64,000 nt of DNA from Nitrospira sp. CR1.3 (lineage in GTDB: Bacteria; Nitrospirota; Nitrospiria; Nitrospirales; Nitrospiraceae): the NCBI GenBank assembly GCA_014055525.1, contig WIAH01000011.1, forward strand, positions 62,001-126,000, read 5' to 3'. Below are positions 17,540-54,502 of the stretch, one piece after another. The notes below the pieces were generated by a model. The model saw nothing but the letters and a program-made list of their open reading frames with translations, was not told the DNA's origin and made no database searches. Position 1 is the stretch's first letter; each line of letters starts with the position of its first letter. Position numbers and translations under genes: made by a program.

Positions 17540-18748
17540 ATGCCCACTCCCTTCGACACCATCGAAGACGCCCTCCGCGACATCAAGAAGGGCAAGTTCG
17601 TCATCTTGGTGGACGACGAAGACAGGGAAAACGAAGGCGACCTGGTCATCGCGGCTGAAAAGGTCACGCCCCAAGCCATTAATTTTATGGCCAAGCACGC
17701 CCGGGGATTGATCTGCCTTGCGCTCACACCGGAACGGGTCGAAGAACTGCAGCTCCCACAACAGGCCGTTGAAAACACGGCGACGTTCGGAACTGCCTTC
17801 ACCGTGTCCATCGATGCCCGGAAGGACATCACCACCGGCATATCCGCGGCTGATCGAGCTACGACGATCCATGTCGCGATCGATCCGAAATCAAGGCCGA
17901 CCGATCTGGCGCGACCCGGCCATATTTTTCCGTTGAAGGCGCAGCAGGGAGGCGTGCTGAGGCGCGCGGGCCAGACGGAAGGGTCGGTCGATCTCGCGAG
18001 ATTGGCCGGACTCACTCCCGCCGGCGTGATCTGCGAAATCATGAACGAAGACGGCACCATGGCGCGCGTGCCCGAGCTCGTCAGGTTCGCGAAATCGCAC
18101 AAACTCAGGATCATCACGATCAAGGCTCTGATCGAGTACCGCATGCGCCGCGAAACCTTCGTCAAGCGCATGGCGAGCGCCAATCTCCCGACGACGTTCG
18201 GCGAATTCGAAGCGGTGGCCTTCGAGAATTTAGTGGACGGCGTGACCCATATCGCATTGGTCAAAGGCCGGGTCGACAGCGGCGAACCGACACTGGTGCG
18301 CGTGCACTCCGGTTGCCTAACCGCCGATGCGCTCGGATCTCTCCGCTGCGATTGCCGCGATCAACTTCACAAAGCGATGGAGATCATCCAGAAGGAAGGC
18401 CGCGGCGTGCTGCTGTATCTCAACCAGGAAGGCCGCGGGATCGGCCTGCTCAATAAGATCAGGGCTTATGGGCTGCAGGACAAGGGAAGCGATACGGTCG
18501 AAGCGAATTTGAAGCTCGGATTCAAAGCGGATCTCCGGGACTATGGGGTCGGCGCGCAGATTCTCGTGAATCTCGGACTGCATCCGATTAAGCTGATTAC
18601 GAACAACCCGCGCAAGATCGTCGGAATTGAAGGATATGGACTAAAAGTAGTTGAGCGAGTACCGATCGAGATTCAGCCGCGCGCAGCGAACATGAAATAT
18701 TTGCGAACGAAGAAGAATAAGTTGGGGCATATATTAAAGAAAGTGTGA
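17540..18748 (+). CDS. ribBA: Bifunctional 3,4-dihydroxy-2-butanone-4-phosphate synthase / GTP cyclohydrolase II
   Basis: A 402-residue fusion of the two first enzymes of riboflavin synthesis. The N-terminal half (about 1-200) is RibB, with [16 protein letters not shown] binding metal and substrate, ending near IEYRMRRE. The C-terminal half is RibA, with zinc-binding cysteines in [17 protein letters not shown] and the GTP-binding [18 protein letters not shown]. RibB relatives usually read HTE where this protein has [16 protein letters not shown] 17540 ([12 protein letters not shown]) is preferred over 17522, which falls in the A/T-rich repeat. Followed by ribH; the stop codon lies inside a palindromic element. 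No FMN riboswitch is seen upstream. Confidence 0.93.
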
Positions 18749-18829
18749 AAGTTGAAAAGTTAGAAAGTGGGAATGTTCCATTGTCTGCGGACAACTTTCA
18801 AACTTTGTAACTTTTGTACTTTCCAACTG
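18737..18829. repeat. Palindromic element between ribBA and ribH (AAAGTT-word family)
   Basis: The left arm repeats gaaagttgaaaagttagaaag; the right arm (18790-18829) repeats the complementary words caactttcaaactttg and acttttgtactttcc. The loop holds tgtctgcggaca, itself a small palindrome. The 11-mer GTTGAAAAGTT (18751-18761) recurs exactly at 19302-19312 inside ribH. The ribBA stop codon is within the left arm. Confidence 0.65.
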
Positions 18830-30586: not shown

Positions 30587-30826
30587 ATGGATGAGATGGA
30601 GGCGGGGAAGAACAAGTTCCTGGAGGTGGTGAGGGGAGTCGATGGGGCGGTGCAGGTGGTGATTCCCGTTACGCCATCGAACAGCATGTTTCTGATTTCC
30701 CTGACCAAGGGGCCAAACCGGAAGTTCATTACGGTGCCAGAAGACGATATCATTGATCTTCCAAACGATGCCGGCATATTGGGCAAGGTGACGAAAATCG
30801 TGAAAGACGCCGTCGCGGCAATGTGA
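30587..30826 (+). CDS. Small hypothetical protein
   Basis: A 79-residue soluble protein (MDEMEAGKNKFLEVVRGVDG) rich in short beta-strand-like stretches (VQVVIPVTPSNSMFLISL, RKFITVPEDDIIDLP). It has a good Shine-Dalgarno (ggaagga) and lies 35 bp after the thioredoxin-fold gene. No family recognised. Confidence 0.65.
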   Translation: MDEMEAGKNKFLEVVRGVDGAVQVVIPVTPSNSMFLISLTKGPNRKFITVPEDDIIDLPNDAGILGKVTKIVKDAVAAM

Positions 30827-30828
30827 AA

Positions 30829-30945
30829 AGGCGAGACGAGCGGGAAAGGCGAGAGAAGCGCGGCGCGCGAAAACAATCAGCTAGGAATGCAATTTCTCTC
30901 GTGCGTCTCGCTATTCGCGCAAGTCTCGCATCTCTCGCGCGTATT
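30829..30945. repeat. Palindromic element (GGCGAGA-word family)
   Basis: The left arm repeats ggcgagacgagcgg and ggcgagagaagcgcgg; the right arm repeats ctctcgtgcgtctcgc and gtctcgcatctctcgcgcg. The arms are related by inversion but not exactly complementary, as in the other elements. It fills the gap between two co-directional genes. Confidence 0.6.
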
Positions 30946-30950
30946 ACATC

Positions 30951-37330: not shown

Positions 37331-39892
37331 ATGTGGCGTTCCGCCGAGCCCAAACCCTCCGAGCCCTTTCAGCAATGGTTGGACCGCTTGGCGCGCCCGA
37401 TCGAATTCGCCTGCCGCGACGCTTTTGCGCATCTGCCGACGGTCAAGAATCTCAACAGGTTCGTGTCCTCGCAGGTGATCCAGACCCTGTCAAATCATGT
37501 GTATCCCCTGGCGGTTGAAGCGGCGTTGCTGAGACTGCGCGAACTGTTTTTGGAGGAACAGCAGCGGCTTTCGACGGCCGATCAGCAGCGGCGATTGCAG
37601 GAAGCCATGATCATTGTGAAAGACCTGCGCGCGATGGACTTCCAAGCCCCGCATGTCCCGCAGAGGCCGGAACCTCTTGTCACGCATTCCCGCGCGATTG
37701 GTCGTGTTCAGCGCGAACTCTGGTCGCTCCCGATTCGGTTCGTCAAGGGCGTCGGCCCCAAACGCACCGCCTTGCTTCAACGGTTCGGTATTGAGACGGT
37801 CGAGCAGGCGCTATGGACGATTCCCTGGCGTTACGAAGACCGGTCGGTGATGACTCCGATCGGTCGACTCATGCCCGGATCGGAAGCGTCGGTCTTCGGG
37901 ACGATCGTCCGCAGCGAGGCGAAGCGCGCGCGTCATCGCCGGCTCACTATCTTGGATGTCTTTGTGGAGGATGAAACCGGCCGCGTCCAGGCGGTGTTCT
38001 TCAATCAACCGTTTCTTGAACCGATTCTGACCGTCGGAACGAAGGTCATGATGACCGGCCGGGTCGTCGCCGGAGCGCGGGGATGGGTGGATACGAGGAT
38101 GGAGGTGTCGCAGTACGAGGTCGTCGGTTCTGAAACGGAGGCATCGGTGCATGTCGGGCGCATCGTGCCGATCTATCATGAAACAAAAGGGTGGACCTCG
38201 CGGCAGATGCGACTGCTGATAAAGGGGCTGCTCGACGCCTATGCGGCCGATATGCGGGAGATCCTTCCCATCACCGTGCGGGCGCGGTACCGTTTGCCGC
38301 CGGTCCATCATGCAATCGAAGAAGTGCATTTCCCGAAATCCGGCACGCCGGCCCCCGCCCTGGAACGGGGATTGACGCCGGCGCACCGGCGGCTGGCCTT
38401 CGAGGAGCTACTCCTCTTGCAGTTGGCGCTCGCCACCCGGCAACGCACGGTCAAGCAGGAGATCAAGTCGATTCGCTTCAATCCGAAAGCCGTAATGCTC
38501 GAGAAATTGACGCGGGCGATTCCCTTTCGCCTCACGGCGGCGCAGGATCGAGTCGTCCGCGAAATTCTGTCCGATATGACCTCGACCCGTCCCATGAACC
38601 GGCTGGTGCAGGGCGATGTCGGGTGCGGCAAGACGATGGTGGCATTGCACGCGGTCGTGCTTGCCTGCGGCTCCGGATATCAAGCGGCCTTGATGGCGCC
38701 GACAGAAATTCTTGCCGAACAGCACTATCAGACGATGAAAGAACTCCTGGAATCGATCGGATTATCGGTCGTGCTGGTGAGCGGAGGCGGGCGCGCCGCC
38801 GAGCGGAAGGCCGTGCGCGAGCAGGTGGCTTCGGGAAGGGTGCGCGTGGCGATCGGAACTCACGCGTTGATTCAGCAAGGCGTGAGTTTCTCCAGGCTGG
38901 CATTAGCGGTGATCGACGAGCAGCATCGCTTCGGTGTCCTGCAACGAAAGACTCTCACCGAAAAGGGCTACAGACCCGATGTGCTCGTGCTGACGGCCAC
39001 GCCGATTCCGCGCACGCTCGCGATGACTGTGTACGGCGACCTCGATGTTTCCGTCATCAACGAAATGCCGCCGGGCCGAAAGCCGGCCCGCACATTCCTG
39101 TACCAGGAGTCGCAGCGGCGGCGGGCCTATCAGATTCTCAAGGACGAGTTGCGAGCCGGTCGCCAGGCCTACGTCGTCTATCCCCTGATCGAAGAATCGG
39201 AGAAGCTTGATCTCAAGGCGGCCATGCAGGGAGCCGAGCGGCTCCGGACGGAGGAGTTGTCCGAATTTCGCGTGGGCCTGCTGCACGGGCAGATGAAAAC
39301 GAACGACAAAGAGCGGACAATGGCGGCGTTCAAAGCGGGCGAGATTCAAGCGCTGGTCTCGACAACCGTGATAGAAGTCGGCGTTGATGTGCCGAATGCG
39401 ACGGTCATGATGATCGAGCATGCGGAGCGTTTCGGATTGGCGCAGCTGCATCAGTTGCGGGGGCGTGTCGGGCGAAGCGAGATGCAATCGTATTGTCTCC
39501 TGATGGCATCGGGGCTGGAGAGGGGTAAGGGGCTAACGGGACAACGGGGTGGCGGTGGAACTCTGCCCCCATACCCCTCTACCCCATATCCCACAGCGGC
39601 ATCCAGGGAACGGCTGGAAGCTCTGGTACGATCGACCGATGGATTTGTGATTGCCGAAGAAGACTTGCGAATTCGCGGTCCCGGGGAGTTTTTTGGATTC
39701 CGGCAGTGGGGCATGCCGGAGTTTCGCGTGGCCAATCTGATACGGGATGCGGATCTGCTTCAGCAGGCCCGCCAGGAAGCGTTCGCTTTGTTGAGGATAG
39801 ACTCTCAGCTGAAGGCGCCGATGCATTGCGCCTTGCGTGAAGCGATGTTGAGGAGATGGGAGAAAAAGTTGGATTTGGGATCGGTGAGTTAA
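37331..39892 (+). CDS. recG: ATP-dependent DNA helicase RecG with an in-frame repeat insertion
   Basis: An 853-residue helicase (E. coli RecG is 693). After an extra N-terminal helical domain of about 120 residues come the wedge domain (VKGVGPKRTALLQRFGI onward) and superfamily 2 motifs: QGDVGCGKTMVA (Walker A), DEQHRFGV (motif II), TATPIPRTLA (III), VSTTVIEVGVDVPNA (V) and QLRGRVGRSE (VI). Between MQSYCLLMAS and ASRERLEALVRSTDGFVIAEEDL, where relatives are contiguous, residues 728-756 are inserted, glycine- and then proline-rich. The DNA for these is a palindromic repeat. The frame is kept, so the protein is probably functional with a loop. It rescues stalled replication forks. Confidence 0.93.
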   Translation: MWRSAEPKPSEPFQQWLDRLARPIEFACRDAFAHLPTVKNLNRFVSSQVIQTLSNHVYPLAVEAALLRLRELFLEEQQRLSTADQQRRLQEAMIIVKDLRAMDFQAPHVPQRPEPLVTHSRAIGRVQRELWSLPIRFVKGVGPKRTALLQRFGIETVEQALWTIPWRYEDRSVMTPIGRLMPGSEASVFGTIVRSEAKRARHRRLTILDVFVEDETGRVQAVFFNQPFLEPILTVGTKVMMTGRVVAGARGWVDTRMEVSQYEVVGSETEASVHVGRIVPIYHETKGWTSRQMRLLIKGLLDAYAADMREILPITVRARYRLPPVHHAIEEVHFPKSGTPAPALERGLTPAHRRLAFEELLLLQLALATRQRTVKQEIKSIRFNPKAVMLEKLTRAIPFRLTAAQDRVVREILSDMTSTRPMNRLVQGDVGCGKTMVALHAVVLACGSGYQAALMAPTEILAEQHYQTMKELLESIGLSVVLVSGGGRAAERKAVREQVASGRVRVAIGTHALIQQGVSFSRLALAVIDEQHRFGVLQRKTLTEKGYRPDVLVLTATPIPRTLAMTVYGDLDVSVINEMPPGRKPARTFLYQESQRRRAYQILKDELRAGRQAYVVYPLIEESEKLDLKAAMQGAERLRTEELSEFRVGLLHGQMKTNDKERTMAAFKAGEIQALVSTTVIEVGVDVPNATVMMIEHAERFGLAQLHQLRGRVGRSEMQSYCLLMASGLERGKGLTGQRGGGGTLPPYPSTPYPTAASRERLEALVRSTDGFVIAEEDLRIRGPGEFFGFRQWGMPEFRVANLIRDADLLQQARQEAFALLRIDSQLKAPMHCALREAMLRRWEKKLDLGSVS
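39512..39598. repeat. Palindromic element inserted in recG
   Basis: The left arm (gagaggggtaaggggctaac) and right arm (acccctctaccccatatccc) repeat related G-rich or C-rich words around gggtggcggtgg. Its length, about 87 nt (29 codons), is a multiple of three. The words resemble the ggggctagagg family found at 19905, 39895 and 57684. Confidence 0.65.
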
Positions 39893-39894
39893 CA

Positions 39895-39980
39895 GTGGGC
39901 GAGAGGCCCGAGGCTAGAGGCAAGGGGGCTCTGTACGGAATCTCCAACCTCTCGCCCCTCGCCTCTGGCCCCTAGCCGGG
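39895..39980. repeat. Palindromic element downstream of recG (GGCTAGAGG-word family)
   Basis: The left arm contains gggcgagaggcccgaggcta and gaggcaaggggg; the right arm cctctcgcccctcgcctctg and gcccctagccggg. Exact 13-mer and 12-mer matches to the element at 19905-20006 (see there). The end of its right arm, cgggag, is also the Shine-Dalgarno of the next gene. Confidence 0.7.
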
Positions 39981-44942: not shown

Positions 44943-45016
44943 GGCGGAGCATCCCGGTTCGAGCGCCGCAGCCTACATGAGGAAACTGTTCTTGTGCAAG
45001 AAGCCCCAAGAAGCGG

Positions 45017-45120
45017 GTTTGTTTGGTTTGTCTTGTGTATTTGGTTAGGTCGGAGTGAACGGGGCGGTAGTGTGGACGGTCAGTCAACGAGATCAAACAA
45101 ACCAAATGAACCAAAGAAAC
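45017..45120. repeat. Palindromic element (GTTTGG-word family) beside the cupredoxin gene
   Basis: Left arm 45017-45046 (gtttgtttggtttgtcttgt and ttggtt), right arm 45091-45120 (gatcaaacaaaccaaatgaa and ccaaagaaac). T/G-rich words on one side face C/A-rich words on the other, not exactly complementary. It lies 6 bp past the cupredoxin stop. Confidence 0.65.
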
Positions 45121-45125
45121 GGGAA

Positions 45126-51532: not shown

Positions 51533-54502
51533 ATGATGAAAGCATGGTTGTTCGATGAGTGGTTTCGGTTCGATCGTTCGTACCTGACCGCTGAGGGCTC
51601 ACAGGGCGAATGGGGCGCCGGCGATTCGATCGCCGAGGAGGAGGAACTGCCTCCGGCTCCGGGCAACGTGGCGGCCAAATGCGGGAACGGGCGGATCACC
51701 GTCACCTGGGATCCTGTTCCGGAGGCCATGTACTACAACCTCTATTTCCAGACGACCAAAGGTGTTCAGATCAAGTTCTCCGAATTGACCAGACCGATCG
51801 CCGGGGCCGATGACTTCAAAGCCGTCATCGGCGTGAAGAAGGACAAGGCGACCTGTATCGAAGGCGCGCAATCCCCCTTCGTGCATGACGATCTGGCGAA
51901 CGGGACTTGCTATCACTATGTCGTCACCGTGGTGACGCCGAAAGGGGAGAGTCTTGAATCACAGGAAGTCATGGCGATTCCCTCCCCGTATCTGCTGACG
52001 ATGAGCATCGGGCAGGAAGGAGTGGAGGACGGCGAGTTCAGCTCACCGACCGGCATCGCGCTCGACAAAGACGGCAGCATGTACGTTGCCGATACCGACA
52101 ACCATTCGATTCAGAAATTCGACAAAACGGGGAAATTCATCGCGCGTTGGGGCGGCGAACCCTCTTCGCAGGAGGGAAGCTTCTATTATCCCCGCGGGCT
52201 CGCGGTCGGCGTGAACGACACATTGTACGTGGCCGACAGCGGAAACAATCGGGTGCAGAAGTTCGATCTCGAAGGCAACGTGATGCAGGCTTGGGGAAAG
52301 TTCGGATTCGCCTGGCGCGGGGCCGAGATGGGGAAGTTCGATGTTCCCTGGGGGCTGGCGACGGACCAGGAAGGGAATCTGTACGTATCCGATACGAGCA
52401 ACTCGCGGATTCAGAAATTCAAAGCCGACGGCACGCCGCTTTTGAAATGGGGGCGGGACGGGAGTTTCGACGGGGCTTTTTTCTTCCCGCGAGGCGTGGC
52501 AGTGGACTTTGTCGGCAATATCTTCGTCGCCGATGAAAGCAATAATCGCATCCAAAAATTCGACCCGCGGGGAAGCTTCCTTTCCAAATGGGGGCGCGAA
52601 GGTTCGGGACCAGGCCAGTTCAAGTCCCCCTGGGGCATTGCCTGCGACGCCATCGGCAATGTGTATGTAGTGGACACCGGGAACCATCGGATTCAGAAAT
52701 TCGACGGCAACGGCACGTTCCTCTGTTCATGGGGCAATCGCGGCAAGACGGAAGGCCAGCTCAATTTCCCCTACGGCATCGCCGTCGACAAGGAAGGCTG
52801 CGTCTACGTCGTCGACAGCGGGAACAACCGGGTGCTCAAGTACGTTCCGACCGAAGAGGAACTGAATCGGGGGAAAGACGAAGCGCCAAAATCGCAGGAA
52901 CCGAACGCGACCCCGGCGCCGCACAGCGTCGCGGCCAAGGCCGGCGACACCGAGGTCTTTGTCAGCTGGATGGAGGTGCCGGGCGCGGTCTCTTACAACC
53001 TGTACTTCAACACCTCCCCCAAGCTCACCTTGCAAACAGGCACGAAGATCGAAGGGGTGACCAACCCGTTCGCGCACTCCGGATTGACCAACGATACGCC
53101 CTACTTCTACGCCGTAACGGCGGTGTTTGAGAACGGCGCGGAGAGCGCATTGTCGAACGAGGTGACTGCGATGCCGGTGCTCATCGACGTCACGGCGCCG
53201 CAGAATCCCTACGCCGTCATGAACCACGGCGCCTTCATGACCAACTCGCCTGAAGTAGTCGTGACGATTTCGGCCAACGATATCGACACGGGAGTCGGGG
53301 CCTACTTCATCTCCGAAGCGCCGATGACTCCCGCGGCCGGAACGCCCGGTTGGGTGGAGGTGACGCCGGCGCTCAAATTCGGCGCGACGATTCCCTTCAT
53401 TCTCTCGCCCGGCGACGGGCAGAAGTCGATCTATGTCTGGTTCAAGGATGTCGGCGGAAACGTGTCGACGCCGGCCGCCGCCACTATTCTGGTCAACACG
53501 TCGGGATATCTTTGCGTCGCCAGGTGGGGACGGCCCGGTCGAGGCGCGTCGTTGCTGCACGGTGGCGAGTTCGTGGCGCCGCTATACGGGCTCTGTGTGG
53601 ACCAGCAAGGATCGCTGTTCGTCGTGGACAACGGCAACAACCGCGTCCAGAAGTTCGACAATACCGGCAACTTCATCATCCTCTGGGGCAACTTCGGCTC
53701 GGCCAACGCCAATTTCCACAATCCCACCGGCATCGCCTGCGACGGCAAAGGCGATGTCTGGGTCGTCGATACCAACAACCATCGTGTGCAGAAGTTCGAC
53801 GGCAAGCTCGGCGGCTATGTGCTGAAGTTCGGCTCGCGGGGGAACGGCGAGGGCCAGTTCAACTCGCCCTGGGGCATCGCAGTCGATCGGGTCAGAGGGT
53901 ATGTCTACGTGGTCGACAGCGCCAACTTCCGGGTTCAGAAGTTCGACATGGCCGGCGAATTCATCATGTCGTGGGGAAGCTTCGGCAACGGCGACGGACA
54001 GTTCTACTTTCCGCGCGGCGTTGCCGTGGATCAGTCGGACGGCTCGGTCTATGTCGTCGACATGGGGAACCATCGCGTCCAGAAGTTCGATACCAGCACG
54101 AATGTCCTGCCGCAGCTGCTGACCAAGTGGGGCGGCAGCTCGGAGGCGGGCCATGCCAGCAGCCCGCTGGCGCAGGAGGCGGGACAGTTACGGTCGCCCT
54201 GGGGCGTTGCGGTCGACGCGGCCGGCGACGTGTACGTGACGGATACCGGCAACCATCGGATCGAAAAATTCGACAAGGAAGGCAACTTCATCACCCAATG
54301 GGGCGGTTACGGCAACAACAACGGACAATTCAATTTCCCATACGGCATTGCCGTGGACGCGAAGGGAAGCGTGTTCGTAGTTGACAGCGGGAATACCTGC
54401 GTGCAGCAGTTCATGCCGGCCGACGAAGGCAGCGAGCGGCTACAGGAAGAGGCCGAAGCTGCGGCTGAGATCGAGAAGGCGCAGGGAGCAACGAAGGCGT
54501 AA
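51533..54502 (+). CDS. Large NHL-repeat protein: two six-bladed propellers with fibronectin-like domains
   Basis: A 989-residue protein. Residues about 40-145: fibronectin-III-like domain. Residues about 160-440: six NHL repeats, each with a segment like GQFKSPWGIACDAIGN followed by VYVVDTGNHRIQKFD. Residues about 460-545: a second fibronectin-like domain, then an Ig-like linker from about 560. Residues about 660-970: six more NHL repeats. Twelve repeats make two six-bladed beta-propellers. No signal peptide or anchor is visible; the N-terminus (MMKAWLFDEWFRFDRS) is not a Sec signal, although such proteins are usually extracellular. A protein or carbohydrate scaffold role is likely. Confidence 0.85.
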   Translation: MMKAWLFDEWFRFDRSYLTAEGSQGEWGAGDSIAEEEELPPAPGNVAAKCGNGRITVTWDPVPEAMYYNLYFQTTKGVQIKFSELTRPIAGADDFKAVIGVKKDKATCIEGAQSPFVHDDLANGTCYHYVVTVVTPKGESLESQEVMAIPSPYLLTMSIGQEGVEDGEFSSPTGIALDKDGSMYVADTDNHSIQKFDKTGKFIARWGGEPSSQEGSFYYPRGLAVGVNDTLYVADSGNNRVQKFDLEGNVMQAWGKFGFAWRGAEMGKFDVPWGLATDQEGNLYVSDTSNSRIQKFKADGTPLLKWGRDGSFDGAFFFPRGVAVDFVGNIFVADESNNRIQKFDPRGSFLSKWGREGSGPGQFKSPWGIACDAIGNVYVVDTGNHRIQKFDGNGTFLCSWGNRGKTEGQLNFPYGIAVDKEGCVYVVDSGNNRVLKYVPTEEELNRGKDEAPKSQEPNATPAPHSVAAKAGDTEVFVSWMEVPGAVSYNLYFNTSPKLTLQTGTKIEGVTNPFAHSGLTNDTPYFYAVTAVFENGAESALSNEVTAMPVLIDVTAPQNPYAVMNHGAFMTNSPEVVVTISANDIDTGVGAYFISEAPMTPAAGTPGWVEVTPALKFGATIPFILSPGDGQKSIYVWFKDVGGNVSTPAAATILVNTSGYLCVARWGRPGRGASLLHGGEFVAPLYGLCVDQQGSLFVVDNGNNRVQKFDNTGNFIILWGNFGSANANFHNPTGIACDGKGDVWVVDTNNHRVQKFDGKLGGYVLKFGSRGNGEGQFNSPWGIAVDRVRGYVYVVDSANFRVQKFDMAGEFIMSWGSFGNGDGQFYFPRGVAVDQSDGSVYVVDMGNHRVQKFDTSTNVLPQLLTKWGGSSEAGHASSPLAQEAGQLRSPWGVAVDAAGDVYVTDTGNHRIEKFDKEGNFITQWGGYGNNNGQFNFPYGIAVDAKGSVFVVDSGNTCVQQFMPADEGSERLQEEAEAAAEIEKAQGATKA

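Follow-up and report, generated by a model that had tools for sequence, protein, structure and literature searches.

The question raised by the recG locus of Nitrospira sp. CR1.3 is how a tract built like an intergenic repeat comes to lie, in frame, inside the gene of a conserved DNA helicase. The earlier note on this DNA had read the tract as a palindromic element of intergenic type inserted into recG, and had taken it as a sign that such elements are mobile. The window is the whole stretch of DNA that was analysed, 64,000 nucleotides in length, and its features are listed in Table 1.

The RecG loop and its repeat-like tract

Judged by its family and structure matches, the gene encodes an ordinary RecG: the Pfam domains RecG_wedge, DEAD, Helicase_C and RecG_dom3_C are found, and the protein matches the T. 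maritima structure 1gm5 with an E value of 3e-153 (phmmer). The tract encodes residues 728-756, GLERGKGLTGQRGGGGTLPPYPSTPYPTA, in a loop of 34 residues, and, as the earlier note had it, its coding DNA is repeat-like, in frame and free of stops. The element consists, in order, of a G-run arm, GAGGGGTAAGGGGCTAACGGGACAACGGGG, in which four G runs are seen by inspection of the sequence, a short centre, and a C-run arm, CCCCCATACCCCTCTACCCCATATCCC. An Rfam search gave no match near recG.

In the AlphaFold2 model built on an alignment with 29 relatives, whose mean pLDDT is only 63, residues 729-756 have a pLDDT below 50, and the loop is flanked by a beta strand (721-726) and a helix (755-767); the model from the single sequence (pLDDT 35) was discarded and the alignment-based one used instead. 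The loop 729-756 is predicted to be disordered. It follows the strand that comes after helicase motif VI and precedes the first helix of the C-terminal part, a position in which it is probably without effect on the enzyme.

Table 1. Coordinates in the window of recG, of the parts of its repeat-derived loop and of intergenic repeats of the same build
Feature	Position	Strand	Basis or remark
recG, ATP-dependent DNA helicase, 853 aa	37331..39892	+	ORF; Pfam; phmmer to 1gm5
Repeat-derived loop, in frame, residues 728-756	39512..39598	+	sequence; AlphaFold2; relatives' loops
G-run arm, GGGGTAA/GGGGCTAAC-like units, period 8	39520..39549	+	lag-8 identity
CAA, Gln738	39542..39544	+	GQ encoded here in 13/13 carriers
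C-run arm, inverted partner of G-run arm	39566..39592	+	sequence
Heptad palindrome, GGCTAGA/GGCGAGA spelling, intergenic, directly downstream of recG	39896..39979	.	inverted-repeat p 0.003, lag-7 identity 0.56
Octad palindrome, GAAAGTTA spelling, intergenic	18742..18828	.	inverted repeat p 0.001, lag 8
Palindrome, GCGAGAC spelling, intergenic	30821..30949	.	inverted repeat p 0.001
Palindrome, GGTTTGTTT spelling, intergenic	45010..45125	.	weak here, common elsewhere in genome

The word palindromic in the earlier note holds for most of the homologous loops of relatives, and only weakly for the copy in the window. Folding of this copy as a hairpin is not significant (z = -0.9 as DNA, -1.3 as RNA), nor is its inverted-repeat score alone (p = 0.10-0.15), because the copy is decayed. 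The periodicity is another matter: the identity at lag 8 is 0.49-0.51, and among 20,000 coding windows drawn at random only 0.04-0.05% have an identity as high as 0.49 at lag 7 or 8, so that the 8-nt periodicity of the tract is far beyond chance, while the palindrome alone is not. When 296 kb of the genome's own coding sequence was scanned without bias (own-genome counts come from sampled stretches that total about 402 kb), the recG tract is one of only four tracts at lag 7 or 8, and none was found at lags 10, 11, 13 and 14. A DNA search of the own genome for near copies of the element matched only the element itself.

The view that this is an ordinary low-complexity loop, unrelated to intergenic repeats, could appeal to the insignificant palindrome of the own copy and to the variable loops present in all family members. 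It is scarcely credible in the face of a period-8 signal below the 0.1% level, the polarity of the arms and the clear homologs, with counterparts between genes, in 12 genomes, and the comparison at lag 8 with the 20,000 coding windows refuted it.

When RecG is aligned across Nitrospira and other phyla, as the earlier note had proposed, the loop proves to be family-wide but short outside the group, the flanking blocks of T. maritima 1gm5 being about 5 residues apart. Every inspected family member has a variable loop here, of 22-28 residues in about 30 relatives and longer in a few; the statement that in relatives CLLMAS is followed directly by ASRERLEAL is therefore wrong within the family. The element was found in 13 genomes of two genera (three of g1, including the own genome, and ten of g9), with GGGG/CCCC arms. 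The loops of these carriers have 34-41 residues, and the repeat stands in place of the native loop, which in most non-carriers of genus g9 is of one mutually homologous type, GGVLFRSKKPKEAGEPPSAARE. What had been described as a clean insertion of 29 codons is thus a replacement of the native loop, in which about 10-18 codons are gained on balance. The element is absent from close relatives, which have a native loop; no precise empty site was shown at recG, the native loop being replaced in carriers, and no target-site duplication, such as accompanies a MITE, is identifiable there.

Eleven carrier loops were tested, the own copy being one of the eleven, and eight of them are significantly palindromic (p 0.0003-0.009). 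The copies in the 12 other genomes of the Nitrospira group are fresher, a fresh form being GGGGGTAAGGGGGTAAGGGGGCAAGGGGGTAATACCCCTCTATCCCCCTACCCC in G206, and the own copy is decayed. All 13 carriers have Gln (CAA) where the commonest array unit of G053 has TAA, a stop in frame; at the position equivalent to Gln738, the units of G053 read TAA 33 times, CAA 7 times and otherwise 33 times. In layout and motifs the carrier loops have much in common (TACCCCTCTATCCCCCTACCCC; the 5' edge TCATGG..ATC in G206, G208, G214, G053 and G040). One spelling is common to all, and long stretches are common to some, for example G206 and G040. The contigs of three carriers end in or near the element (G203:C95, G040:C81, G211:C33), which suggests that the element interferes with assembly and that some carriers may have been missed.

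Repeats of the same build between genes and in other genes

The intergenic character claimed for the arms was borne out, since the recG repeat type occurs between genes in the own and in related genomes. The intergenic DNA of the own genome and of G053 contains many palindromes of the same build, spelled GGTTTGTTT, GAAAGTTA, GTTCGAG, GTTCTGA, GCGAGAC, GGCTAGA, ACGTGAA or GGGGTAA (in the sample of G053, some high inverted-repeat scores came from runs of N and were left out), and GGGGTAA arrays are present in G053, G206 and G002. Within a genome, the same small set of spellings comes back at numerous unrelated loci, far above the shuffled expectation. Where the repeat regions of G053 were compared with orthologous relatives, the matches broke at the repeats, and neither a clear target-site duplication nor a clean empty site was seen.

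Two families of intergenic palindromes with a conserved core were also noticed in G053:C22:1-400000 (L183-L202). The first has the core TGCGCGCGTC.AACGAGCAC...GTGCGCGTTC.GCGAGCA and locus-specific outer arms (364049-364154, 354181-354275 and 298257-298352 are examples), and its layout recalls attC sites; the second has the core CGGAGGCGTAGCCTC.GGGCTACGTTGAGGA and variable arms (387601-387758, 269345-269471 and 154271-154398). In the window itself, direct repeats of about 141-147 nt lie inside coding sequence at 52011-54357, and these we take to be, probably, NHL-type propeller repeats.

In-frame elements were found in other genes as well. In the own genome, the HerA-like ATPase (L136) has one between LTRAQIKTLM and RPMLPPDVPQ, and the same loop is filled in nine species (the own one and eight others) with at least four spellings; among those of the eight others are GGCAAGG, ACGTGAA, GCGTGGA combined with CAGCACT, CGTCAAT and GGGGTAA. 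In G053, a GGGG array is also found inside this gene. Its arms are in phase across species, with a one-armed copy in G059 and differently spelled arms in G006. The loop of a P-type ATPase, named from sequence motifs and not from a family search, contains palindromes of GTTCTGA in G053, G214 and G198, of GTGCTGA in G044 and G006 and of GCGTGA in G206, as well as one-armed tracts of GTTCGGA or GGTCAAT in G000 and G040; about five spellings occur, and two paralogs are without the element. In both ATPases, the site is conserved and the spelling differs between species. Receiver-domain loops and the CheB interdomain linker also have in-frame elements, with a G-rich heptad or octad arm, a centre and a C-rich arm. 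The best periodicity is 7 or 8 nt in all 32 coding elements tested, and the first half is G-rich and the second C-rich in 31 of them. Their length is variable, roughly 60-140 bp, and the loop peptides differ from gene to gene, only the units of 7-8 nt recurring. Since these coding examples were found via repeat patterns, they show existence and not frequency.

Distribution of carriers and origin of the loop

Carriers of the recG element are scattered over the tree as if at random. They are not monophyletic, a forced grouping being rejected with the flank and upstream trees (AU p 4e-6 or lower); parsimony requires 9 changes of carrier state on the recG flank tree vs 10.4 for random labels, and 7 vs 8.0 on the tree of the upstream sequence. 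Two carriers are sisters of non-carriers with 100% support, namely G206 of G059, which has the native loop, and G006 of G001. GGGGYA arrays are more numerous in carriers (median per genome 16 vs 3, p = 1.6e-5, and p = 4.6e-4 for the excess without counting the recG copy, kinship being ignored in both), and their number is higher in the carrier in 9/9 close pairs compared, these genome comparisons drawing mostly on metagenome-assembled genomes. The mobility suggested by the earlier note is something that we infer from the scattered distribution.

The reading preferred here, with a probability of roughly 0.6, is that the recG tract is a decayed coding copy of a dispersed repeat, copies of which enter tolerant disordered loops or overwrite what is there, with allele exchange in addition. 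The element would be made of two converging arms, that is, several G-rich units of 7 or 8 nt, a centre and inverted C-rich units. Its copies would spread either to other sites, by copying, or onto resident elements, which they overwrite, and loop alleles would also be exchanged between related species; a coding copy would survive only if it kept the frame, contained no stop and sat in a surface loop or linker that is disordered. Within this scheme, it is the copying from elsewhere, the neutrality and the route of exchange that we infer, while the position in frame, the periodicity, the order of G and C arms, the scatter of carriers, the link with the number of arrays and the occurrence in other genes are observed.

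It is possible, though considerably less probable, that recG received a single ancient insertion, and that the scatter reflects homologous exchange of repeat and native loop alleles together with losses, with no repeated mobility. The layout and motifs common to carrier loops and the mutual homology of the non-carrier loops of g9 speak for such a history, and the one recG spelling with its long common stretches would also fit a single ancient event, with recombination and loss thereafter. However, the flanks adjoining the loop follow the gene tree: just downstream of it, the difference between G206 and G059 is 0.06, and that of G206 to G040, G202 and G053 is 0.19-0.22; therefore, the exchange tracts would need to be very short. 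Taken alone, a single insertion in recG also leaves unexplained why the HerA-like and P-type ATPases have differing spellings at one site.

Birth in place, by slippage of short seeds, with template switching at hairpins making the inverted arm and with spellings that drift under local homogenisation, is a rather doubtful explanation of the whole. The one-armed copies (P-type ATPase of G000 and G040, HerA of G059) and the arms of unlike spelling in HerA of G006 are consistent with it. The conserved phase of the HerA arms is easier to reconcile with evolution in place than with repeated new insertions and, together with the motifs common to recG carriers, favours some in-place history. What argues against it as the general origin is that the same few spellings recur at unrelated loci, and that the presence of the recG element tracks the genome-wide number of arrays.

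A REP-type element moved by a Y1 (TnpA-REP) transposase is very unlikely: the own genome does have three Y1 genes, but their flanks carry other inverted words, for example AAAGGGGTCGGGAGTCGTTTCT, and not these arrays, and no tetranucleotide-tagged short hairpin was seen in the elements. The three REP-type genes (L032, L033 and L034) each have an inverted word of their own, that of L033 being 22 nt long and 100% complementary. It is extremely improbable that the arms were written at broken ends, by telomerase-like or reverse-transcriptase addition or by Ku end joining. The arm topology would agree with this, in that G extension of both 3' ends would give a G arm and then a C arm, but in the carriers G000, G006, G053 and G206 no match to RVT_1 (reverse transcriptase) was obtained, these assemblies being partly incomplete and a divergent enzyme possible, and Ku was not found. 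In this small sample of genomes, Ku is present only in G001, G003 and G059, all without the recG element, and is also absent in the non-carriers G044 and G048. A further proposal, put forward tentatively and at well below even odds, is that loops of conserved enzymes are fixed docking sites, at which heptad or octad palindromes are repeatedly overwritten from the genome's own pool of spellings by copying independent of reverse transcriptase and Ku.

Comparison with known systems and significance

Rickettsia palindromic elements (Ogata 2000, 2002, cited in PMC10969869) are about 150 bp long and form families with a conserved peptide (PMC10969869); like them, the present repeats are palindromic, intergenic and also in frame in unrelated genes, where they are apparently tolerated. 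Such in-frame copies were found in recG (the own copy weakly palindromic), in the HerA-like and P-type ATPases, in receiver domains and in the CheB linker. The Nitrospira elements differ in having neither a family-wide sequence nor a conserved peptide, in the variable spelling and length of their arms at the sizes given above, and in a spelling that varies between species at one site. By sequence criteria, the recG-type element is not a member of that family; the parallel drawn in the earlier note applies to the effect.

Among published repeats, those that come nearest in build are the converging GGGAATC heptads of Xanthomonas, whose species have 70-75 converging inverted heptad pairs; the heptameric G-quadruplex repeats of Xanthomonas and Nostoc consist of heptad G-run units and are mostly intergenic (PMC4692102). 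The GGGGTAA arrays are likewise tandem G-run heptads with converging pairs, mostly intergenic, and the recG unit is an octad. Xanthomonas and Nostoc have one spelling per genus, whereas Nitrospira has many, with periods of both 7 and 8 nt, and, unlike them, has loop-targeted in-frame copies in conserved enzymes. REPs, which are tagged hairpins of 20-40 bp (PMC3733652), and REPINs, with their Y1 transposases, are also short imperfect palindromes in many copies (PMC3733652, PMC2817692), but the Nitrospira elements have no tag and no Y1 neighbourhood. PARCELs (palindromic amphipathic repeat coding elements), in which a 25-residue protein motif is repeated in tandem within ORFs that have no assigned function, are similar as coding DNA with dyad symmetry and a patchy distribution (PMC2996958); the Nitrospira elements are single loops of housekeeping enzymes, not tandem motifs.

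In the literature searched, no earlier report of these repeats in Nitrospira was found. To our knowledge, the habit of repeats to lie in frame in coding genes has previously been described mainly in Rickettsia. A case in the free-living Nitrospira group, with several conserved enzymes affected and different spellings at one site, is a natural experiment in which selfish DNA becomes protein sequence, and two questions are made testable by it: how the arms come to be copied when no enzyme is known to do so, and which loops of a protein can accommodate them. If the loops are indeed fixed docking sites, the elements would make up a new class of mobile repeats that code for protein.
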